Shown: positions 8,860 through 34,835 of the stretch, one piece after another
How positions within the stretch are numbered: the first letter of the stretch is position 1
Layout of the letters: each line of letters begins with the position of its first letter
DNA from: a virus
DNA: 42,181 nucleotides
Reading direction: 5' to 3' (one strand)
IMG/VR virus record: IMGVR_UViG_3300025879_000039
Span: 1 to 42,181 of that record
Made by a program: the position numbers and the translations under genes
The notes under the pieces: generated by a model
The model's database searches: none
Told to the model about the DNA's origin: nothing
What the model saw: the letters and a program-made list of their open reading frames with translations, nothing else

Positions 8860-8874
8860 AGTTAATTATTTTAG

Positions 8875-8946
8875 TTGTCCCACAAGGACTCGAACCTTGA
8901 ATGCCGGTACCAAAAACCGGTGTGTTACCAATTACACCATGGGACA
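8875..8946 (-). tRNA. tRNA-Gln (anticodon TTG)
   Basis: A complete cloverleaf reads on the minus strand: acceptor TGTCCCA/TGGGACA, D-stem GTGT/ACAC with AATTGGTA loop, anticodon stem CCGGT/ACCGG with loop TTTTGGT (anticodon TTG), T-arm CAAGG-TTCGAGT-CCTTG and discriminator A. The CCA end is not encoded. It decodes CAA, which suits the AT-rich codon use of this phage. It lies directly downstream of the structured RNA region. Confidence 0.93.
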
Positions 8947-9390: not shown

Positions 9391-9409
9391 ACTTTTTAGA
9401 TACTTTTTG

Positions 9410-9494
9410 CGGAAGATGAGGGATTCGAACCCCCGGACCTGTTACAGTCAACAGTTTTCAAGACTGCCGCATTCGACCACTCTGCCAATCTTCC
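9410..9494 (-). tRNA. tRNA-Ser (anticodon TGA)
   Basis: A class II tRNA on the minus strand: acceptor GGAAGAT/ATCTTCC, D-arm with GCAGAGTGGTCGAATGC, anticodon stem GCAGT/ACTGT with loop CTTGAAA (anticodon TGA), a long variable arm (TGACTGTAACAGGTC) typical of tRNA-Ser, T-arm GGGGGTTCGAATCCCTC, discriminator G. CCA is not fully encoded. It decodes UCA. It begins 7 nt after the queC stop codon, so it is probably co-transcribed with queC and cut from the mRNA. Confidence 0.93.
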
Positions 9495-9501
9495 TACCTT
9501 T

Positions 9502-10323
9502 TTAAGCTACGTAATCAGCTAATACTTTCTCTACTGCAGCTCTTGCTACATCATAAGATACAGGTCCTGTTTCGTCTTCGTATTGAACTGGATCTTTACG
9601 TCCTAGTTTAATAAATGCTTCAATACGTTCTACTGAAGAAGCTGATTTGTAATCTGAGTTACCTGATGGATAAGGTTTATAGGACGTATTAGTTCTTTTA
9701 TAGACTTCATCAAAATCTAATCCAAGTTCTTCACATAATTTTTCACCATCCTGTAAAATAGTAAATTTATCTCCTTCTAAATAAGGTGTAAAATAACCTA
9801 CTCTATCAGCGTCCCAGTTACCCATTCTAAAAGCTGCATCATCTGCATCTCTGAATTCTTGTCTACAGTCAGGGTAAACGGCATGATCACCAGAATGGAT
9901 ACCTAAAGCGATATCACAAGTTTCTTCTGTTCTATTTGCAACTGATAATGCAACGGCTTGAGTAATAGAAGCGAACATCTTGTTTCTGTTAGGAACAACT
10001 GTTTCTTTCATATTATCTTGCTCATAATGTCCTTCTGGTACATCATCTCCACCATCAACTAATGCTGAATCTAATAAATCTACTAGTCCATCTAATTTAA
10101 TTTGACGATAATTTACCGTACACCCATTAAAACAATTTTCATCTGAGGGGCAGTTTTTATTAATATAATCTACTAATGATTGAGCTCTCTCTAACTCTAC
10201 TCTGTGTTTTTGACCATAATCGAATGAGATAGCTGTTACAGAATCGTATTCTGATAATGCTCTTAATAATAATGTTGAGGAATCCATCCCTCCTGATAAG
10301 GATACTACTACATGTTTTGCCAT
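9502..10323 (-). CDS. queC: QueC-like 7-cyano-7-deazaguanine synthase
   Basis: A 273-aa member of the QueC ATP-PPi family, which converts carboxy-deazaguanine to preQ0. The PP-loop SGGMDS is at residues 10-15, followed by the family motifs [20 protein letters not shown] and [16 protein letters not shown]. The C-terminal zinc site, normally C-x(8)-C-x2-C-x2-C, is altered: TNTSYKPYP and [13 protein letters not shown] have Ser or other residues in place of all four cysteines. A separate insert, [11 protein letters not shown] near residue 57, carries three new cysteines. In phages QueC often supplies deazaguanine for DNA modification that evades restriction; no partner gene (queD, queE, folE, dpdA) is in this window. 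A tRNA-Ser follows at once. Confidence 0.85.
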
Positions 10324-22941: not shown

Positions 22942-25900
22942 TTATATATTTATATCTCTAGAGTTTATTAATGTATAAGTGAACTTATCTTGCTGTACTT
23001 TTCGTGTTGCTTGTTTTGCTACCTGTAGTATACGAGATAAACTACCAGGTTTACTAACTACTTGACAACCAGCTGACCATTTATCTATTTGAGTGGAACC
23101 AGAATTCCTTGTACTTGCCTTATGGATGTTAATACCAAAAATTCCGGTTTGCGGGTTTTTAAAATCGTAAAATTGATCTCCATTTCTATCTCTCCATACA
23201 GTAACAGGATTAATTTGTGTTAGAGATAAGTATCCTCCCGATCTTTTATGTTTTCCGAATGCATGAGATTTTATGTACTGTCCTTCCTTAAGTATTGCAG
23301 TACCTGCTGAGTTAATACTATTAACAAGCCAGTGTTTTCCTGGATCTGTAGTACATGCGAATTTCTCTGCTTTTTTAATTCCGTTTTCTATCCAAGATAT
23401 TGTCATTATATCGTCAAACTTATTGCTCAACGGTATTTTACCATCGCTAAAGGAGTTATAATTACGGATACCTACAATATTGACAGCCCATTCACGGGAA
23501 TCCCACTCATACCCTTTACTTGTAACTGCGGCTTTTATTGAATCGTAGTCTACATTTTCTCCACTTATTGGCTCTGTATCATCTTCAATTACCGGTTCTT
23601 CTCCGCCGGTAGCAGTTGTTTCTTTATACCCTTCCGATGATGTTTTAGCAGTTTTTTCAAAGTACTCTATTTCTTCCTTTGTAGGAGGTTTAATAGAATA
23701 AAACTGTGTTTTTATGTCTGTTGTCCATCTATTATCTTGAATACTATGAGATAGTCCGGTTATAATATATCCGAAATCTTCTGCGTATCTTTGCGGTAAT
23801 AGTCCCTGTTCAATTAAGAAGGCCTGCCCTATTTTTATTCCACTTATTCCCAATGTTGTAAAGGATAATTCTACCGGAATAACTCCTGGTGGTGGTTTTG
23901 GATCATCTTTCTTTTTAGAATAAGTCTCTACTACGTATTTTTGACAGAATTTTTTATGGTAATTAGAAATTGATGAAACTAGGTCAGCATTAAAATCACC
24001 ATTATCAAATGCCTTATCTCCATTAAATTCTCTCCAATAGTCGTAGTAGTCTTCAATCCACTTTTTTAATCTTGTGTCAGCAGGGTTTTCTCTTTTCTCT
24101 TTTTTCTGAGTGACTTTAGCATTATCGTCTGTATTTTCCTGTGCTTTATGTCTTATGTGCCTGTCTAGCAGTCCTGCATTCCACTTAAGAAGAGGCCCTA
24201 CATTATCTTTAGAATTTCCACCTGTTCCTTGGGCAGCTATAGAAACCATATTCCCTATATTTTGACTAATTTGACTAGAAATATTTACATTTGACATAGT
24301 CGATTTAGTTCCAGATATAGTTAATGTGGGTATTAATTCACGGAGTGCAGGTGTTATTTTTCTATCTACAATATAGAATAAGTCGTCGCTATCGTCATAA
24401 AATAAATCAAAATCATTTACTCCTCCCATAGCTTCGTTCATAGCCTTGAGAAGTATTCTCAAAAAATGTACTATGTTGTTATTTTCGTTTTGATCAGAGT
24501 CCTCATTAGCTTTAGCGATCTTATCTAATTCATCTTTAAGGAATTGTACTGAAATTAGTATATTTAATATGTCATCTGTTTCTCCTCTAATTAGTCCTTG
24601 AGTAAAAGCAGATTCTACCTGTTTATGGAATCCATTTTTCCATATAACGCCTACTGGAAAAGCAGTTCCTTGTCCGTCTGGCCATTCTAAGAGCTTACCT
24701 TCGCTATCTCGTAATGTAGTCAATCGTGGTTTTTTCGGCAATACGCAAACCATAGGATTAATAGAAAAATGTTGATCTGTTGTAAGGTATTTTAGCTTTT
24801 TTTCATATTTACCGGTGTTATATTCGTCTTGATGACCGGTATAAAATTGTGTTAATTTCCTTCCTGTTGAATTTGTTCCTTTAGATTTAGATTTAGTACC
24901 ATCTATTAAAGTAACGTAATTATTATAGACATCTAATATTACATGTAACGGTATCCAGAATTCATTAAGGTCATCATTATCGGTAAAGTTACTATCACCT
25001 TTCAATTCCAAGTCTTTCAATCTGAATGCAGCGAAGTCATTTAATGTTTTCCTGAAGTGTTGTGAAGAATTTCTAGCAAAGTTACCTTTAGTATATATGG
25101 GCATCACCTCACCCTCAGGTTGAAGTCCTGTAATATCTGCTTTATTTTCTTTAGCTATAGCTTGGTTTATCTTCCTGTCAATTTCTTGTTGTTTAGCAAG
25201 TTGTTTTCTCTTCTCTCGGTCTTCCTTTTGTTTTTCCGTAAGTTGTTCTTCTGGTATTAACGAACGATCTTGAATAAAGTTAGTTAATCTTAATCCTTCT
25301 CTATAATCATCAGCTGTGAAAGAATTATCTACCTCAATTTGAAACGATTCTCCATTTTGATCAGTAACTTTTATATTATCTCCTGGGTTACCTTCTTTAG
25401 AATCTGCTTGAGAAAAAGTTAGTCCATATTCTCCAAACTGCCTGTTAAGGTAAAATTCTAATTCTTCTTCCTCTAAGTCTGCAAACCCACTACTTCCTGT
25501 TTTTGTTGGTCCGAAAGTGTAGGTTTTACCATTATATACGAAAGAATCTCCGTTTCTTAGTTTTTCGAATTTTTTATTGAATGCATCATTTTGCATTGAT
25601 ATTTTCGCTTCTGCCCCTTGTGGGTCATCTAGTGCAGCTAATAGGTCTTCGTCATTACCGAACAGTACATCGCTAGTTGCTCCTCCGATTGCGTATCCTG
25701 CTACTACTGCTGCAGTGCCTGCACCACCAGGTAAAGTACTTAAAGCAGCAGCAGTTCCTAATTGACGTAGTTCTGTACTTGATGTTCCTCCGTCTACCCA
25801 GTATTGCATCTCAGTAAAAAGTTTATGGAAAATTGATTTTCTCTCTTCCTTACCTTTATCTTTCCTCAAAGAATTCATCTGATTTGCAGGATATACATTG

Positions 25901-26790
25901 GAAGGGTCGAAAGTACATGCAATAGACTCTAATACACTACCTTTAGCTATAATTTTTATCGTACAATCATAACCTCCCTGTTCGTTGATACTCCAGTTGA
26001 AATTAGATACATATCCAACAAATGAATCGTAATTATAGTCTGAGTCTTTTTTAATCTTAAGTAGGTCCTTCTCAAAAGTTAACATCGGATCATCAACACC
26101 GTCTCTTAAAAATTTCTTATAGGTTTCTATTTGCGTATTTAGACTCCCAGGGTTTTCTGTTGATTGGAGTTGTATGCTATGTCCCCATTCAAGTAATATT
26201 GTATATCCAGGCCTTAAATACAGAGCCTGCATAACCTCTAAATCTTCTAAAGTCCATACCTTAACATTGACTTCAGCTTCCCTCAATGTTCCGTATGTAC
26301 CTTTAGATTTAACATTAACTGATTCAATACCCGGTGTTGGACGGAACCCTAAGCTTTCATAATTATGATAAGCACTATTTTTAATATCACCTGCTTTAAT
26401 ATATCCATTAGCATCAATATCTATAGGATTGTGTCTTTTCTTACTAACTCCTCCTCCTAAAGTTGTAGGTTGATCTGGGGTGCTTTGTTTTATGGTACCC
26501 CCCATAAGTACATTATTGTAAGCTAAGTTCTTATTACCAATTACCTCTTCTACTGTAAGTTTACCTGAAGCTAGTAAATTAGTTTCAGTATCTGTTAATG
26601 TATTAACACTGGATACCATTTTAGCCCATGCACCGTTGCTGTTGAAAAATAAAAGATGCTCTTTTGTTTTCTGATTTTGTGATACAAGTTTTTCACGCTC
26701 TATGAGTTGTCTAGTTACTCCTGAGTTTATTCCTCCTCCGATTACTTCTTGCGGCTGTCCTTGTGGTATATCTTTAGCTGTTTTTGACAT
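22942..26790 (-). CDS. Large baseplate hub protein with C-terminal HxnSxGC domain
   Basis: A 1282-aa multidomain baseplate protein. The N-terminal 300 residues contain VNVKVWTLEDLEVMQALYLR and PGYTILLEWGHSIQL, a pattern I associate with hub/tail proteins of phages of Bacteroidetes, then YNYDSFVGYVSNFNWSINE. The centre is long and helical/charged; a second beta region (YGYIITGLSHSIQDNRWTTD-like, near 1050) resembles gp27-type hub folds. The last about 180 residues form a separate domain ending GINIHKASTRNSGS and WSAGCQVV: His1223 and Cys1242 in an HxnSxGC arrangement, as in L,D-transpeptidase (YkuD) catalytic sites. It may act on peptidoglycan during infection, a role held by gp5 lysozyme in T4. 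It overlaps the LysM gene (TAATG). Confidence 0.7.
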   Translation of the reverse strand: MSKTAKDIPQGQPQEVIGGGINSGVTRQLIEREKLVSQNQKTKEHLLFFNSNGAWAKMVSSVNTLTDTETNLLASGKLTVEEVIGNKNLAYNNVLMGGTIKQSTPDQPTTLGGGVSKKRHNPIDIDANGYIKAGDIKNSAYHNYESLGFRPTPGIESVNVKSKGTYGTLREAEVNVKVWTLEDLEVMQALYLRPGYTILLEWGHSIQLQSTENPGSLNTQIETYKKFLRDGVDDPMLTFEKDLLKIKKDSDYNYDSFVGYVSNFNWSINEQGGYDCTIKIIAKGSVLESIACTFDPSNVYPANQMNSLRKDKGKEERKSIFHKLFTEMQYWVDGGTSSTELRQLGTAAALSTLPGGAGTAAVVAGYAIGGATSDVLFGNDEDLLAALDDPQGAEAKISMQNDAFNKKFEKLRNGDSFVYNGKTYTFGPTKTGSSGFADLEEEELEFYLNRQFGEYGLTFSQADSKEGNPGDNIKVTDQNGESFQIEVDNSFTADDYREGLRLTNFIQDRSLIPEEQLTEKQKEDREKRKQLAKQQEIDRKINQAIAKENKADITGLQPEGEVMPIYTKGNFARNSSQHFRKTLNDFAAFRLKDLELKGDSNFTDNDDLNEFWIPLHVILDVYNNYVTLIDGTKSKSKGTNSTGRKLTQFYTGHQDEYNTGKYEKKLKYLTTDQHFSINPMVCVLPKKPRLTTLRDSEGKLLEWPDGQGTAFPVGVIWKNGFHKQVESAFTQGLIRGETDDILNILISVQFLKDELDKIAKANEDSDQNENNNIVHFLRILLKAMNEAMGGVNDFDLFYDDSDDLFYIVDRKITPALRELIPTLTISGTKSTMSNVNISSQISQNIGNMVSIAAQGTGGNSKDNVGPLLKWNAGLLDRHIRHKAQENTDDNAKVTQKKEKRENPADTRLKKWIEDYYDYWREFNGDKAFDNGDFNADLVSSISNYHKKFCQKYVVETYSKKKDDPKPPPGVIPVELSFTTLGISGIKIGQAFLIEQGLLPQRYAEDFGYIITGLSHSIQDNRWTTDIKTQFYSIKPPTKEEIEYFEKTAKTSSEGYKETTATGGEEPVIEDDTEPISGENVDYDSIKAAVTSKGYEWDSREWAVNIVGIRNYNSFSDGKIPLSNKFDDIMTISWIENGIKKAEKFACTTDPGKHWLVNSINSAGTAILKEGQYIKSHAFGKHKRSGGYLSLTQINPVTVWRDRNGDQFYDFKNPQTGIFGINIHKASTRNSGSTQIDKWSAGCQVVSKPGSLSRILQVAKQATRKVQQDKFTYTLINSRDINI

Positions 26791-29868: not shown

Positions 29869-32820
29869 TTACGAACCTGTTAATCTTGAAAATGATTTTG
29901 CCTGAGTTCTTCCTACTTTATCGGAATCAAGATATACATCACCGCCTGAGGATATAACTTCGATTAAAGTGTCAAGTTTGGCTTCTAATTTAGCAAAACC
30001 ATCGCTATCTTCCCCTCCATCTCCAAACAAACCTCCTAAAGCTATGAGCGGTGTTGCCATGAGTGCAAATCCAGATAAGGCTGCCAATGCCGGTATTGCT
30101 GCAATTCCTGTTAGAGCTATTGCTCCTAAACCTGCTGCTATAGACATCAAAGCTCCTCCTAATAAGTACAGCTCCGGTAACATAGTTACTAATGTACCTA
30201 ACTGTCCGAATATCGATACAAATCCTTGTGCAGCAAATTGTATACCTTTACCCATCATCAGTGCTCCTGCACCAATGAGTGCAAATCCTGCTCCTAATCC
30301 AACTGCCATTCCTATTAATGCAGCTAATCCTAAAGCTCCTACTCCTGATACCATTGCAGTACCTAAAGCTGTTAAAGCTGGAATTAGTGTAGTTATACCT
30401 GCTGCAGCCATTGGTGCTGTTACACCCATTAGTGCCATTCCTGCTGATGCAGGTATCATAGCTATAAATGCTGCTGCAGTTGCCAGTAGCCCTAGAGAAC
30501 CTAAAAGTACTTTACCAGTTCCCATAGCTTTTAAACCTTGAGCTAAAGACTCCATAGAAAGGAGTAATTTAGGTCCACTAACTAACTCCATTAACTTGGC
30601 TCCTGCTATTCCTGGTATCATAGCTACTAATCCTAAAGATGCTGGTATTAGGTTTAAAGCACCGTATAGCACTTTCATACTAGCCATTCCTTTCAATCCT
30701 TCTGCTAAATTCTTTAAAAAAGTCTTTATATTTTTACCTGGTTTGACTGCTTTAGTTTTATCAGAAGCTGTTTCTAAACTATCTGTTACTTTTTCTGATA
30801 CTGTGTCTTTTGCTTTATCGGATATTTCATCAACTATATCTTGATCCTTTCCGGTACCTTGATTAAATGCCTCTTTTATTTTTTCCCATTTTCCTCCTAA
30901 CACCTCTTTAATTGAATCAAAAAATCCTTTAGAGTCTGGTGAAGTGATAGTTTTTATGAATTCTTTACTCCCTTTAAATATACTTCCTAATTTTCCTACT
31001 ATACCGGTAAGGTTACCAGCTAATTTACCAGCTGCTACAGCTCCTAGTAGTATTTGCGGTACCCATGGTATGCTTAGTATATCACCAAAAAAATCTAATA
31101 TTGGTGCTAAGGCTGATGCTATCTTTTCTAATGCTTTAGCAAAATTTTCTTGAGCAGTTATCCTCTTCATATCCTCTGCATTTACTCCTGCTGCAGCTGC
31201 TGCCTGTTCTTCTGTCATTTCAAGTTCTAATGCTCTCTGGTAAGCAACTCTAGCTAATTGGTCTCTGGTCATTCCTAAAGCCTTAGCTTGTGCTTCTTGT
31301 TGAATACGGTTCATTTTACCGAATTCATTTATATCAGATGAGTTCTTAAGTAACTCTTTTCCTAATCCCTCTAAGTCATTGTTTAATGCAAGTTCTCTAG
31401 CTTTAGCTAAATTAATATTTTTACCTGTTAGTAACTGTGCCTCTAGTTCACTCTGTATAGAAGAATCAAAATCCAATAGACTACTAGCAATATTATCTAG
31501 GTCTTTTATATCCATTCCTAATCTCCTAGCTGCTGCTGCCCCTTTGACTAACTCTTTTGTATTACCTGCAAAAGATGCTCTTATTCCTTCTGATACATTA
31601 CCTATATCTCTTAATATCGCACCTTGAGAAACTGCTGTTCTATTTGCTCCGTTAAATTCTGAGGTTGTAGCTATTATGCTATCTGTTAATGCCTCTACTC
31701 CCTGGTTAGAGGTCTGTGCCATCATAGCTAAGTTTCCTGCTTCTCCTGCAGCTAACCCCATCTCTACTTTTAAATTAGCAGCTCCTTGTAAATTCTGTTC
31801 ACTAAATGCATTTTGTGCATTAAAACCTACTTGTTTAGTTAACTCTGCTACAACTTCCATTTGATCACGGGCAGATGCTGCCCCGTTAAGGAATGTATCA
31901 AAGTTAGATGCTGACTGTCCTGTCAATCTGCTAATCTCAACTGATTGTTTATTAATTTTAAAAAACGTATCTAGTAATTTTAATCCTATAGATGTAGGAT
32001 CCAATAATGCTTTTCCGAAACCTTGTAAAACTCTCTTTACTCCTGTAGATGCTACTTTCAGTTTATTCATAAAAGTAACGTTATTCCCCATGTCTTTTGC
32101 CATGGTTCTCATTTCTTCAGTAGCTTCACTCATTGCTTGGTTGAAAATACCGGATCTCATACCCAGTCTCTCCATTAACGCACCTGTACCGCCAACTAGC
32201 GCTCCAGCGACACCCATATTTTCGTTAATTGATGTCTCTAATTCTAACCTTTCTTTTGTTTTAGCTATAAGCCCTGTTAGTCCAACATCTTGTTCAGCAT
32301 TAAACTTAGAAACTTCTCTAAGCTGCTTCATTCTTTTAATTTCAGCTTTTGACTTTCCTTTAGTATATTGAAGTTCTTTTGCTTCTTGTTTCGCTATCTG
32401 TGCTTGTAAACTAAGTTGTGCTTGTGATGCCTGGAGATCTTCTAGTTTAGATTCTAACTGTCTCTTACTTAAATCTGTTAACCCTTGGTAATCATTTACC
32501 ATATCTCTGGAGATATTTGCTATTTTATTTTGGGCTTTAGCTGCAATACTAAGTGTACTGTTTTGCTTACTTAATGCAGCAGCATTCTGCTGTATAATAT
32601 TATTAAGATCGGCAAATGGAGTTGAAAGGTTAGCTGCTTCACTTCTTAATTGTTCAACACGTTTACGTACTCTATCTACTTCACCACTTACAGCGGACGT
32701 ATCACCTGCTAGTTCCTTAAATGCTCTATTTATTGCATTTATTTCAGCCGTTGATGCACCTAACTTTTTTAGTTCTTTGTTAAGAAATATTATTTCTTGA
32801 TTTAAATTGCCGTTAGCCAT
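29869..32820 (-). CDS. Tail tape measure protein
   Basis: A 983-aa tape measure protein. The N-terminal 250 residues form long coiled coils (VDRVRKRVEQLRSEAANLST), the middle has TMP-typical helices (SAREL... and FNGANRTAVSQGAILRDIGN), and the last 280 residues are very hydrophobic Gly/Ala-rich helices (LGLAALIGMAVGLGAGFALI). These properties, the size and the place between tube/chaperone and baseplate genes support the call. By the usual about 0.15 nm per residue it would set a tail of roughly 145 nm, an estimate only. It starts 13 nt after a TATTTATAATAAA motif. Confidence 0.85.
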   Translation of the reverse strand: MANGNLNQEIIFLNKELKKLGASTAEINAINRAFKELAGDTSAVSGEVDRVRKRVEQLRSEAANLSTPFADLNNIIQQNAAALSKQNSTLSIAAKAQNKIANISRDMVNDYQGLTDLSKRQLESKLEDLQASQAQLSLQAQIAKQEAKELQYTKGKSKAEIKRMKQLREVSKFNAEQDVGLTGLIAKTKERLELETSINENMGVAGALVGGTGALMERLGMRSGIFNQAMSEATEEMRTMAKDMGNNVTFMNKLKVASTGVKRVLQGFGKALLDPTSIGLKLLDTFFKINKQSVEISRLTGQSASNFDTFLNGAASARDQMEVVAELTKQVGFNAQNAFSEQNLQGAANLKVEMGLAAGEAGNLAMMAQTSNQGVEALTDSIIATTSEFNGANRTAVSQGAILRDIGNVSEGIRASFAGNTKELVKGAAAARRLGMDIKDLDNIASSLLDFDSSIQSELEAQLLTGKNINLAKARELALNNDLEGLGKELLKNSSDINEFGKMNRIQQEAQAKALGMTRDQLARVAYQRALELEMTEEQAAAAAGVNAEDMKRITAQENFAKALEKIASALAPILDFFGDILSIPWVPQILLGAVAAGKLAGNLTGIVGKLGSIFKGSKEFIKTITSPDSKGFFDSIKEVLGGKWEKIKEAFNQGTGKDQDIVDEISDKAKDTVSEKVTDSLETASDKTKAVKPGKNIKTFLKNLAEGLKGMASMKVLYGALNLIPASLGLVAMIPGIAGAKLMELVSGPKLLLSMESLAQGLKAMGTGKVLLGSLGLLATAAAFIAMIPASAGMALMGVTAPMAAAGITTLIPALTALGTAMVSGVGALGLAALIGMAVGLGAGFALIGAGALMMGKGIQFAAQGFVSIFGQLGTLVTMLPELYLLGGALMSIAAGLGAIALTGIAAIPALAALSGFALMATPLIALGGLFGDGGEDSDGFAKLEAKLDTLIEVISSGGDVYLDSDKVGRTQAKSFSRLTGS

Positions 32821-32848: not shown

Positions 32849-32874
32849 AAGGCCCGTAATTATTTACGAGCCTT
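32849..32874 (-). terminator. Hairpin at the end of the gp51-like frame
   Basis: AAGGCTCGTAA and TTACGGGCCTT form an 11-bp stem (one G-U) with a 4-nt ATAA loop, and the stop codon of the gp51-like frame lies in it. No T-run follows, so it may be a processing or stability element, or a weak terminator, rather than a strong intrinsic terminator. Confidence 0.55.
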
Positions 32875-33135
32875 TGTACTATATGAAGGTTTCTTAATAG
32901 TGGGACTTTTTAAGGTCTGAGATTTTTTATTTACTTTGTCGTATTCTGCTTTTTCTTTTTCATAATGCTCTTGCATTTTTTGAAAAGTAAAATTTCTAAG
33001 CCAAATAGGCATATTGTAAACTGTATCATAGTTATACCCTCCTTTTCCGTTAAATACTATTTCATGTATTTGTGTAAATATAGATAACCTATAGGTTGGC
33101 GTCAGGCCAAAGAAAGTTAACCCCGATAGGGATAT
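32860..33135 (-). CDS. gp51-like tail assembly frame, reached by frameshift
   Basis: A 91-codon open frame between TAA 33136-33138 and TAA 32860-32862, in the +1 (equally -2) frame relative to the gp26-like gene and overlapping its last 15 codons. It encodes FFGLTPTYRLSIFTQIHEIV, then FNGKGGYNYDTVYNMPIWLR and a Lys-rich helix. That conserved-looking order (LTPxxR...NGGY...VYxMPxWLRxF) recalls gp51-like hub assembly proteins of T4-like phages. No ATG, GTG or TTG occurs before ATG 33010-33012, which would delete the conserved half, so it is most simply expressed as an about 323-aa fusion by frameshifting within 33092-33135, where GGGG and TTTCTTTGG offer slip sites. The tape measure gene follows. 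Confidence 0.7.
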   Translation of the reverse strand: MSLSGLTFFGLTPTYRLSIFTQIHEIVFNGKGGYNYDTVYNMPIWLRNFTFQKMQEHYEKEKAEYDKVNKKSQTLKSPTIKKPSYSTKARK

Positions 33136-33832
33136 TTACTCCTCCTTCCGGTCCATTCTCAGGGTAAAATTTCATATCTACATCTGGTTGAAAGTCTCTA
33201 AGGTAGTTTCTAAATGCTCTAGAGTCTCTTGCTAGGAACTCATTATCTACAAAGGATCTAACAGTGCTTCTTTCACTATCTCCATTAACAGCTATTATCA
33301 TATGTTTTAAACGTGTTGATAATTCTGCTGATGATTCTTTGTTAATCTTCTTTAATCCTTTTACTTCTGAATCAATAGCTTGTTCATCACCATGTGATAG
33401 TAATTTGAAAGTAATTACTTTTTTGGTAGCCGGTAAAGTATAATTAAATGAATTTTCTGTTGCATTTTCAACATCTGGATGTAGTTCGCTGTTGTTAAGA
33501 AGAGACAAGTCTATATTCTCTTTTTCTCCTGCGTATTCAAATTCATAATCCTTACCGTATCCTAAAATACGTGCTGCAATTAAAAGGGCATTTTTATCAC
33601 CTACAAGTAATTGGTTGTAATCAATTGTTTTATCAACAATTAATACCTGAAGTAATTTATCAATAACAATACCTTTTTCGATATAATTTTGATTGGTTAG
33701 AATATCCTCTTCTTTTGCAGTCATGTACTTCATTTCAATACTACCTTTAGCTAGAGGAGAATCCTGTGGGTAGAGTTTTCCTTTTGAAGGTAAATCAACT
33801 ACCTCTGTAGGGAATTTTTGTGTTTGTTCCAT
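33089..33832 (-). CDS. gp26-like baseplate/tail assembly protein
   Basis: A 247-aa protein of the T4 gp26-type baseplate family: VVDLPSKGKLYPQDSPLAKG, EMKYMTAKEEDILTNQNYIE, VIDKLLQVLIVDK and LLIAARILGYGKDYEF are the family signature, also called hub assembly protein. The C-terminus (GVNFLWPDANL) is read in the zero frame while the gp51-like frame overlaps it. The relation of this pair to the tape measure gene mirrors the G/GT chaperone pair of lambda-like phages. It is expressed from a predicted promoter 32 nt upstream. Confidence 0.85.
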   Translation of the reverse strand: MEQTQKFPTEVVDLPSKGKLYPQDSPLAKGSIEMKYMTAKEEDILTNQNYIEKGIVIDKLLQVLIVDKTIDYNQLLVGDKNALLIAARILGYGKDYEFEYAGEKENIDLSLLNNSELHPDVENATENSFNYTLPATKKVITFKLLSHGDEQAIDSEVKGLKKINKESSAELSTRLKHMIIAVNGDSERSTVRSFVDNEFLARDSRAFRNYLRDFQPDVDMKFYPENGPEGGVNIPIGVNFLWPDANL

Positions 33833-33949: not shown

Positions 33950-34222
33950 TTATTTTTTATTAATTCTTTTTTCAAATTTATCAAATCTTGAATCTATTTG
34001 TCTATAAATTTCATCAATTTGATTTTGATAATCTAATCGTAAATCTTTAATTTCATTATTAAAATCTTTACTTAGTTCCTCTATAGTTAAATAACTATCA
34101 CCTATAGATTGATTAATACCTCTAACTTTGGTTTTCACCTTAAACACTCCTATCGAAGCATACCCTACTAAGAATACACCTACTGTGGATAGGACACCTA
34201 AAACAAATTCTAAATTTTCCAT
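33950..34222 (-). CDS. Membrane protein with coiled coil, 90 aa
   Basis: A 90-aa protein with one N-terminal membrane helix (LEFVLGVLSTVGVFLVGYAS) and a C-terminal coiled coil (NEIKDLRLDYQNQIDEIYRQ) that ends Lys-rich. The topology resembles small phage inner-membrane proteins of the spanin or holin-accessory kind, but no lysis motif is visible and the place between tube and gp26 genes is unusual for that. It has its own promoter 51 nt upstream. Function unknown. Confidence 0.65.
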   Translation of the reverse strand: MENLEFVLGVLSTVGVFLVGYASIGVFKVKTKVRGINQSIGDSYLTIEELSKDFNNEIKDLRLDYQNQIDEIYRQIDSRFDKFEKRINKK

Positions 34223-34349: not shown

Positions 34350-34835
34350 TTAATAATTCAAAACGCAATAATCCATTGCAATTGTCATTGATAATTCAAC
34401 AGCATCTGGTGATGACCAATCAAAATCTCCTTGAGACATTGTTTTGATGAAAGCACCTTTGATAATCCATTCCGATACTACATCTCCTACAGGACCTAGT
34501 ACATTAAGAGTTAAATCTTTTTTATAGAAGTCAGAATAACCAGCTCTACCGGTTACTGATTCATAAGATAATCTAGCCCATTCCATTACTGCTTGAGCTC
34601 CTGAAGGTGTGATTGGATCGTATAATGTCATGTCCATATCATTCCACATTCTCTTTCCTCTTATTTTACGGTAAGAGTTAATATGATCAAGAACCACTTC
34701 TCCGTCTTCAAAGCTTGGTGCTGATACTGTCTTTACCATGAATGATGGAATGTTATCCATGTACATGATAAATCTATTCTGTACCTTCGGTTCGAAGGCT
34801 CTAAACATTATTTCGTTTGGGTCTAATACTGCCAT
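34350..34835 (-). CDS. Tail tube protein (gp19-like)
   Basis: A 161-aa tail tube subunit of the T4 gp19 family, which polymerises into the inner tube through which DNA passes. Motifs: FEPKVQNRFIMYMDNIPSFM, VKTVSAPSFEDGEVVLDHIN, RKIRGKRMWNDMDMTLYDPI and the C-terminal SMTIAMDYCVLNY. Length fits the family (about 163 aa in T4). It follows the sheath gene, the standard order, and ends in a strong terminator, which would allow high, separate expression. Confidence 0.93.
   Translation of the reverse strand: MAVLDPNEIMFRAFEPKVQNRFIMYMDNIPSFMVKTVSAPSFEDGEVVLDHINSYRKIRGKRMWNDMDMTLYDPITPSGAQAVMEWARLSYESVTGRAGYSDFYKKDLTLNVLGPVGDVVSEWIIKGAFIKTMSQGDFDWSSPDAVELSMTIAMDYCVLNY

Follow-up and report, generated by a model that had tools for sequence, protein, structure and literature searches.

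A putative +1 frameshift on UUU_C for the two forms of a gp26/gp51-family tail assembly chaperone in an environmental phage

The window analysed here, a virus sequence of 42,181 nucleotides (IMG/VR record IMGVR_UViG_3300025879_000039), carries a tail gene whose 3' end is overlapped by a second open reading frame (ORF) lacking a start codon of its own, and the question is how this second ORF is translated. The features of the locus are collected in Table 1. The first ORF (0 frame) ends at the TAG codon 33091-33089, and an ORF scan placed the first ATG, GTG or TTG of the second one at ATG 33012, confirming the sequence-only reading in that no usual start codon precedes its conserved part. Both ORFs, GGGG (33124-33121), TTTCTTTGG (33115-33107) and ATA 33135 were all found at the coordinates given in that reading; AAGGAGG (33147-33141) is present but stands 25 nt before TTT rather than about 20 nt. 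As expected of a G/GT-type locus, the chaperone gene is placed directly upstream of the tape measure gene and the overlapping second ORF lies near its 3' end. The gene order is sheath, tube, a small ORF (33950-34222), chaperone gene and tape measure, and among the relatives described below a tube homologue is found upstream in 110 of 112 and a tape measure homologue downstream in 84 of 98. The small ORF, also on the minus strand, has an apparent N-terminal hydrophobic segment, a charged tail and a weak match to PHROG_1009.

Table 1. Features of the chaperone locus in the window
Feature	Position	Strand	Observation
0-frame ORF, gp26-like tail assembly chaperone, short form, 247 aa	33089..33832	-	PHROG_150, E 1.6e-5
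Second ORF, 91 aa	33135-32860	-	+1 relative to the 0-frame ORF (one base downstream in frame); opened by TAA 33138-33136
Putative slip codon UUU (Phe), with re-pairing to UUC in +1	33113..33115	-	UUU then Y in 112/112 relatives
C skipped by the putative +1 shift	33112	-	base that varies most in the 12-nt core; C or T throughout
Conserved 12-nt core TTT-CTT-TGG-CCT	33104..33115	-	near-zero differences in 482 close pairs
+1-frame extension FGLTPTYRLSIFTQIHEIVFNGKGGY..., 83 aa after the shift	32860..33111 (stop codon included)	-	profile match to -1 extensions, 90%
Tail tape measure protein, 983 aa, 39 nt downstream	29869..32820	-	PHROG_167, E 3.5e-14
gp19-like tail tube protein, upstream neighbour	34350..34835	-	PHROG_4542, E 5.7e-23

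In all likelihood, the locus is a gp26/gp51-family tail assembly chaperone gene whose two forms arise from a putative +1 frameshift on UUU_C. Most ribosomes would terminate at 33089 and release the short form of 247 aa. In a minority of them, the tRNA-Phe on UUU (33115-33113) would re-pair with UUC one base forward, C 33112 would be skipped and reading would resume in the +1 frame at TTT GGC CTG. The minor product would be a long form, about 323 aa in all, extended at its C-terminus by a helical part. Following the precedent of lambda G/GT, on which the proposed chaperone function is modelled, both forms would coat the tape measure protein and recruit tube subunits. The overlap, the slip site, their conservation and the synteny are read in the sequences themselves and indicate that the shift very probably occurs; the shares of the two forms are predicted. 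Both UUU_C and UUU_U permit full re-pairing of tRNA-Phe in the +1 frame, and UUU_Ynn is described as especially prone to +1 shifts in bacteria (review, PMC5009743).

Homologues were detected by tblastn in Flavobacterium phages immuto (66% identity in the core, 51% in the extension), in Microcystis phage Mel-JY01 and in uncultured phages. Three scans of IMG/VR yielded some 180 loci, selected via the 0-frame protein only and without use of the junction, and clustering at 90% identity left 114 representatives, 112 with the overlap and two (L098 and L104) without it. The second ORF is in the +1 frame in all of the 112 non-redundant relatives having the overlap, and the same holds, wherever the two ORFs overlap, for every resolved locus of the +1 clade; such a recurrence indicates that the +1 overlap is not due to chance, and it strongly supports the earlier proposal that the two frames are joined by frameshifting before the tape measure gene. 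A sequencing error splitting one frame would be conceivable in an IMG/VR virus record, hence in assembled metagenome reads; however, the same overlap is present in isolates (the Flavobacterium and Microcystis phages above) and at about 180 loci, and these independent genomes already refute it. Substitutions in the extension, counted at codon positions 1, 2 and 3 of the +1 frame, amount to 2021, 1352 and 6124, a pattern indicating that the extension evolves as a +1-frame protein under purifying selection. Such selection also argues against a dead gene, and error or decay together retain next to no probability.

The junction reads TTT-YTT-TGG-CCT: of the 114 representatives, 73 have TTT TTT TGG CCT, 27 have TTT CTT TGG CCT and the others carry variants. 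Every relative with the overlap has an in-frame UUU with C or U as the next base. At the third base of the first slip codon, which is silent in both products, T occupies 106 of 110 Phe codons, versus 76% in the rest of these ORFs (p about 3e-9, with clusters taken as independent). At the wobble positions of the 0 frame, the commonest base has a frequency of 0.29-0.45 until two codons ahead of TTT, rises to 0.71 in the codon just preceding TTT and reaches 0.87-1.00 from TTT on. As these positions vary until shortly before TTT and are nearly fixed thereafter, we infer that dual coding begins at TTT. The 482 close pairs show 0.245 differences per nt in the 63 nt upstream versus almost none in the 12-nt core, whose conservation is partly a consequence of the two overlapping codes. 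In nearly all relatives, 18 or 24 nt separate the slip codon from the stop. The slip, formerly placed at GGGG or TTTCTTTGG, is narrowed to the UUU_C tetranucleotide within the latter.

The sequence-only reading left the shift as +1 or -2. A -2 shift into the same frame, as used by gpGT of phage Mu (PMC3498833), would allow re-pairing of the second codon at 80 of the 112 loci; it is impossible for the TTT-CTT-TGG of the window and for 31 others, whereas a +1 slip on UUU_Y fits all 112, and we regard -2 as extremely unlikely. An RNA polymerase slipping on a T run, so that a base is added or dropped in part of the mRNAs, is suggested by the run of seven T found at the site in 76 of the 112 relatives. 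The longest T run is however three in the window and in 26 others, where the overlap is still the same, and this explanation is likewise exceedingly improbable.

The slip sequence is conserved throughout (UUU_Y in 112/112). In 42 of the 112, the +1 frame becomes open no earlier than 11 nt ahead of the slip codon, and 30 of these have no ATG, GTG or TTG up to 60 nt after that codon. This late opening excludes both the ATA start and the GGGG site. For GGGG 33124-33121, once a candidate slip site, the frame is closed at or after that place in the 42 relatives, and the GGG is not conserved.

The same observations bear on the possibility that the extension is translated on its own, from a non-standard or cryptic start (ATA 33135, CTG 33105, TTG in relatives) or from ATG 33012, perhaps coupled to termination of the first ORF. 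AAGGAGG lies 5 nt before ATA 33135, a +1-frame TTG occurs in many relatives, and L098 and L104 do use a separate ATG gene. On the other hand, of the 112 relatives only 70 have an open +1 frame at the ATA position and 17 have ATA itself; the ATA start named as the alternative by the earlier reading fails in the many relatives where a stop separates that position from the conserved part. The CTG is replaced by CTA, CTT or CTC in 26 of the 112, 30 loci lack both an upstream-open frame and a standard start, and initiation at ATG 33012 would lose the conserved FGLTPTYR..QIHEIVF block. A separate start is very unlikely.

The two representatives without the overlap are informative for the +1 shift. 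In L098 (TTC TTG TAT) and L104 (TTC CTT TGG CCA), the in-frame UUU_Y is missing and the extension forms a separate ORF in the other frame, with its own ATG directly after the stop. As judged from these two loci, loss of the slip site is accompanied by gain of a start codon; they equally show that production of a free-standing extension protein is possible, which counts against the frameshift reading. Since L098 and L104 are sisters in the tree, the loss counts as one event. A prfB-like slip on CUU_U was rejected, because L104 retains CTT-TGG but has lost TTT and has the separate ATG gene, and L003 and L048 have CTA. AAGGAGG was also discarded as a stimulator: Shine-Dalgarno-like (SD-like) motifs stand mostly 28-33 nt upstream, which is too far, and are encoded by conserved residues. 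A search for a stimulatory RNA structure downstream found none, the mean folding z being near 0; among known cases of UUU_Y frameshifting, only some have such a structure.

The relationship of the gene to T4 gp26 and gp51 was examined by profile comparison. Both T4 proteins are members of PF12322, and gp51 has about 48 extra C-terminal residues. The match of the core to PF12322 is below threshold (15.9 bits). The core profile matches the cores of relatives with a -1-frame extension at 98.5%, and these -1 cores match T4 gp26 at 99.3% and gp51 at 97.8%; the extension profile matches the -1 extensions at 90%, and these match the gp51 C-terminus at 97.6%. Column-shuffled nulls were far below these values. 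Compared directly with T4 gp26 and gp51, neither the core nor the extension profile gave a significant match, the link being transitive via the -1 relatives only; in the direct comparison of the extension with PHROG_634 (gp51 C-terminus), 3 of 37 members gave a match (best E 0.015) and hhalign gave 4.5%. No PHROG family named tail assembly chaperone matched the window gene, whose core matched phrog_150 alone; weak hits to chaperone families arose only with relatives. Such a match is not required, since known tail assembly chaperones (TACs) share little sequence similarity (PMC5009743). These comparisons place the core in the T4 gp26/gp51 family; the extension would correspond, through intermediates, to the gp51 C-terminus. 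The label gp51-like, which the second frame had received, is right for the extension only: PF12322 includes gp26 as well as gp51, the latter consisting of a gp26-like domain followed by such an extension. The fused product was modelled with AlphaFold2 (pLDDT 87.9), the skip being placed at GGGG so that a few junction residues differ from the proposed product; the model has a helical extension and matches gp26/gp51-type hub proteins of T4-like phages and SP-15 in BFVD. In the PDB, no match was found for the fused model and none by sequence search.

The extension lies in the -1 frame in the distant phages Agrobacterium Atu_ph07, Pseudomonas PA5oct, Stenotrophomonas RAS14, cyanophage Sf-FS3, Rhizobium IC12 and RL38J1, and Aeromonas phiAS5. 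The heptamer U_UUU_UUC is present in 84 of 84 cyanophage and Aeromonas loci (24 clusters), a single codon separating it from the stop; an ATG just after the stop is present in the cyanophages and absent in the Aeromonas phages. In the T4-like gp26 genes of this group (L211, L217-L300), which end in an invariant U_UUU_UUC_G just before the stop, the records annotate the gp51-C-terminus-like -1 extension as a separate short ORF or a hypothetical protein. A quick tree gave four changes among five states, with -1 cases on both sides of the midpoint root and the +1 clade nested among -1; it is tentative because of rooting and long branches. It is somewhat probable that a large phage clade switched its gp26/gp51-type chaperone from -1 to +1 at the same Phe-Phe position, with a bare UUU_Y and no RNA structure, SD element or stop codon. 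If so, few natural UUU_Y +1 sites in bacteria would be as widely conserved.

Among known systems, T4 gp26 (TAC-N) and gp51 (TAC-NC) belong to the same family as the window gene (PHROG_150/PF12322) and likewise provide short and long forms from tail genes, but T4 uses two divergent paralogous genes and no shift, whereas here one gene would use a +1 shift. In the RB43-like phages L209 and L210, gp51-like and gp26-like genes overlap in tandem on one strand, unlike the divergent T4 arrangement, possibly as a relic of duplication. The -1 TACs with poly-T sites (PMC12846349) share with the window family a homologous core plus extension and a Phe-Phe slip site at the same place; their tandem slip on U_UUU_UUC contrasts with the +1 slip on UUU_Y, in the opposite direction. 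Lambda G/GT (-1) and Mu gpGT (-2) also stand before the tape measure gene and give a short form and a rare long form with a C-terminal extension, but have no detectable sequence similarity to the window gene and differ in direction and slip site. Frameshifting in +1 on UUU_Y is described for influenza PA-X (UCC_UUU_CGU) and YopN-TyeA (PMC5009743, PMC3498833), which resemble the window family in a P-site UUU followed by a pyrimidine without a stop codon; the latter differs in being a bacterial phage tail gene with A-site codons CTT, TTT or TGG. Streptococcus phage GXN1, a distant relative, has TTC TTT CGT.

The 2016 review (PMC5009743) describes G-T frameshifting as widely conserved except in T4 and mentions a likely +1 case in halophage HSTV-2. 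According to the citation in PMC12846349, Vladimirov, Gautam and Davidson (Virology 2022) identified T4-like tail assembly chaperones and proposed a non-frameshifting mechanism, which, as cited, overturns T4 as an unexplained exception. We read these chaperones as gp26 and gp51, in agreement with the profile comparisons. The same citing text gives poly-T -1 signals in TAC-N genes of T4-like phages. The earlier suggestion that gp26/gp51 be unified with G/GT is thus sound but, going by that citation, was already published for T4 in 2022, along with the use of -1 shifts by some T4-like relatives. No report of a +1 shift in the gp26/gp51-type chaperone family was found in the open-access literature, and the +1 direction, its UUU_Y site and its coupled loss appear to be new.

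With these results, frameshifted tail chaperones would be known also from a large environmental clade of phages with contractile tails, where the shift is +1, and one chaperone family would make its short and long forms in four ways: by +1 shift, by -1 shift, from separate genes and from paralogous genes (T4). Recoding research would gain a natural UUU_Y +1 site for which numerous sequence variants and one natural loss are available. Annotations can be corrected too: the annotated relatives examined lack the long form and list the extension as a hypothetical protein, with a late start in the Flavobacterium phage record.

Elsewhere in the window, a QueC-like queuosine/7-deazaguanine biosynthesis gene (9502-10323, minus strand; PHROG_1550, E 1.1e-42) is adjoined by two tRNA genes, Gln (8874-8946) and Ser (9409-9494), and a tail-region protein of 1282 aa (22942-26790, minus strand) has an endolysin-like C-terminus (PHROG_3000, PHROG_33083).
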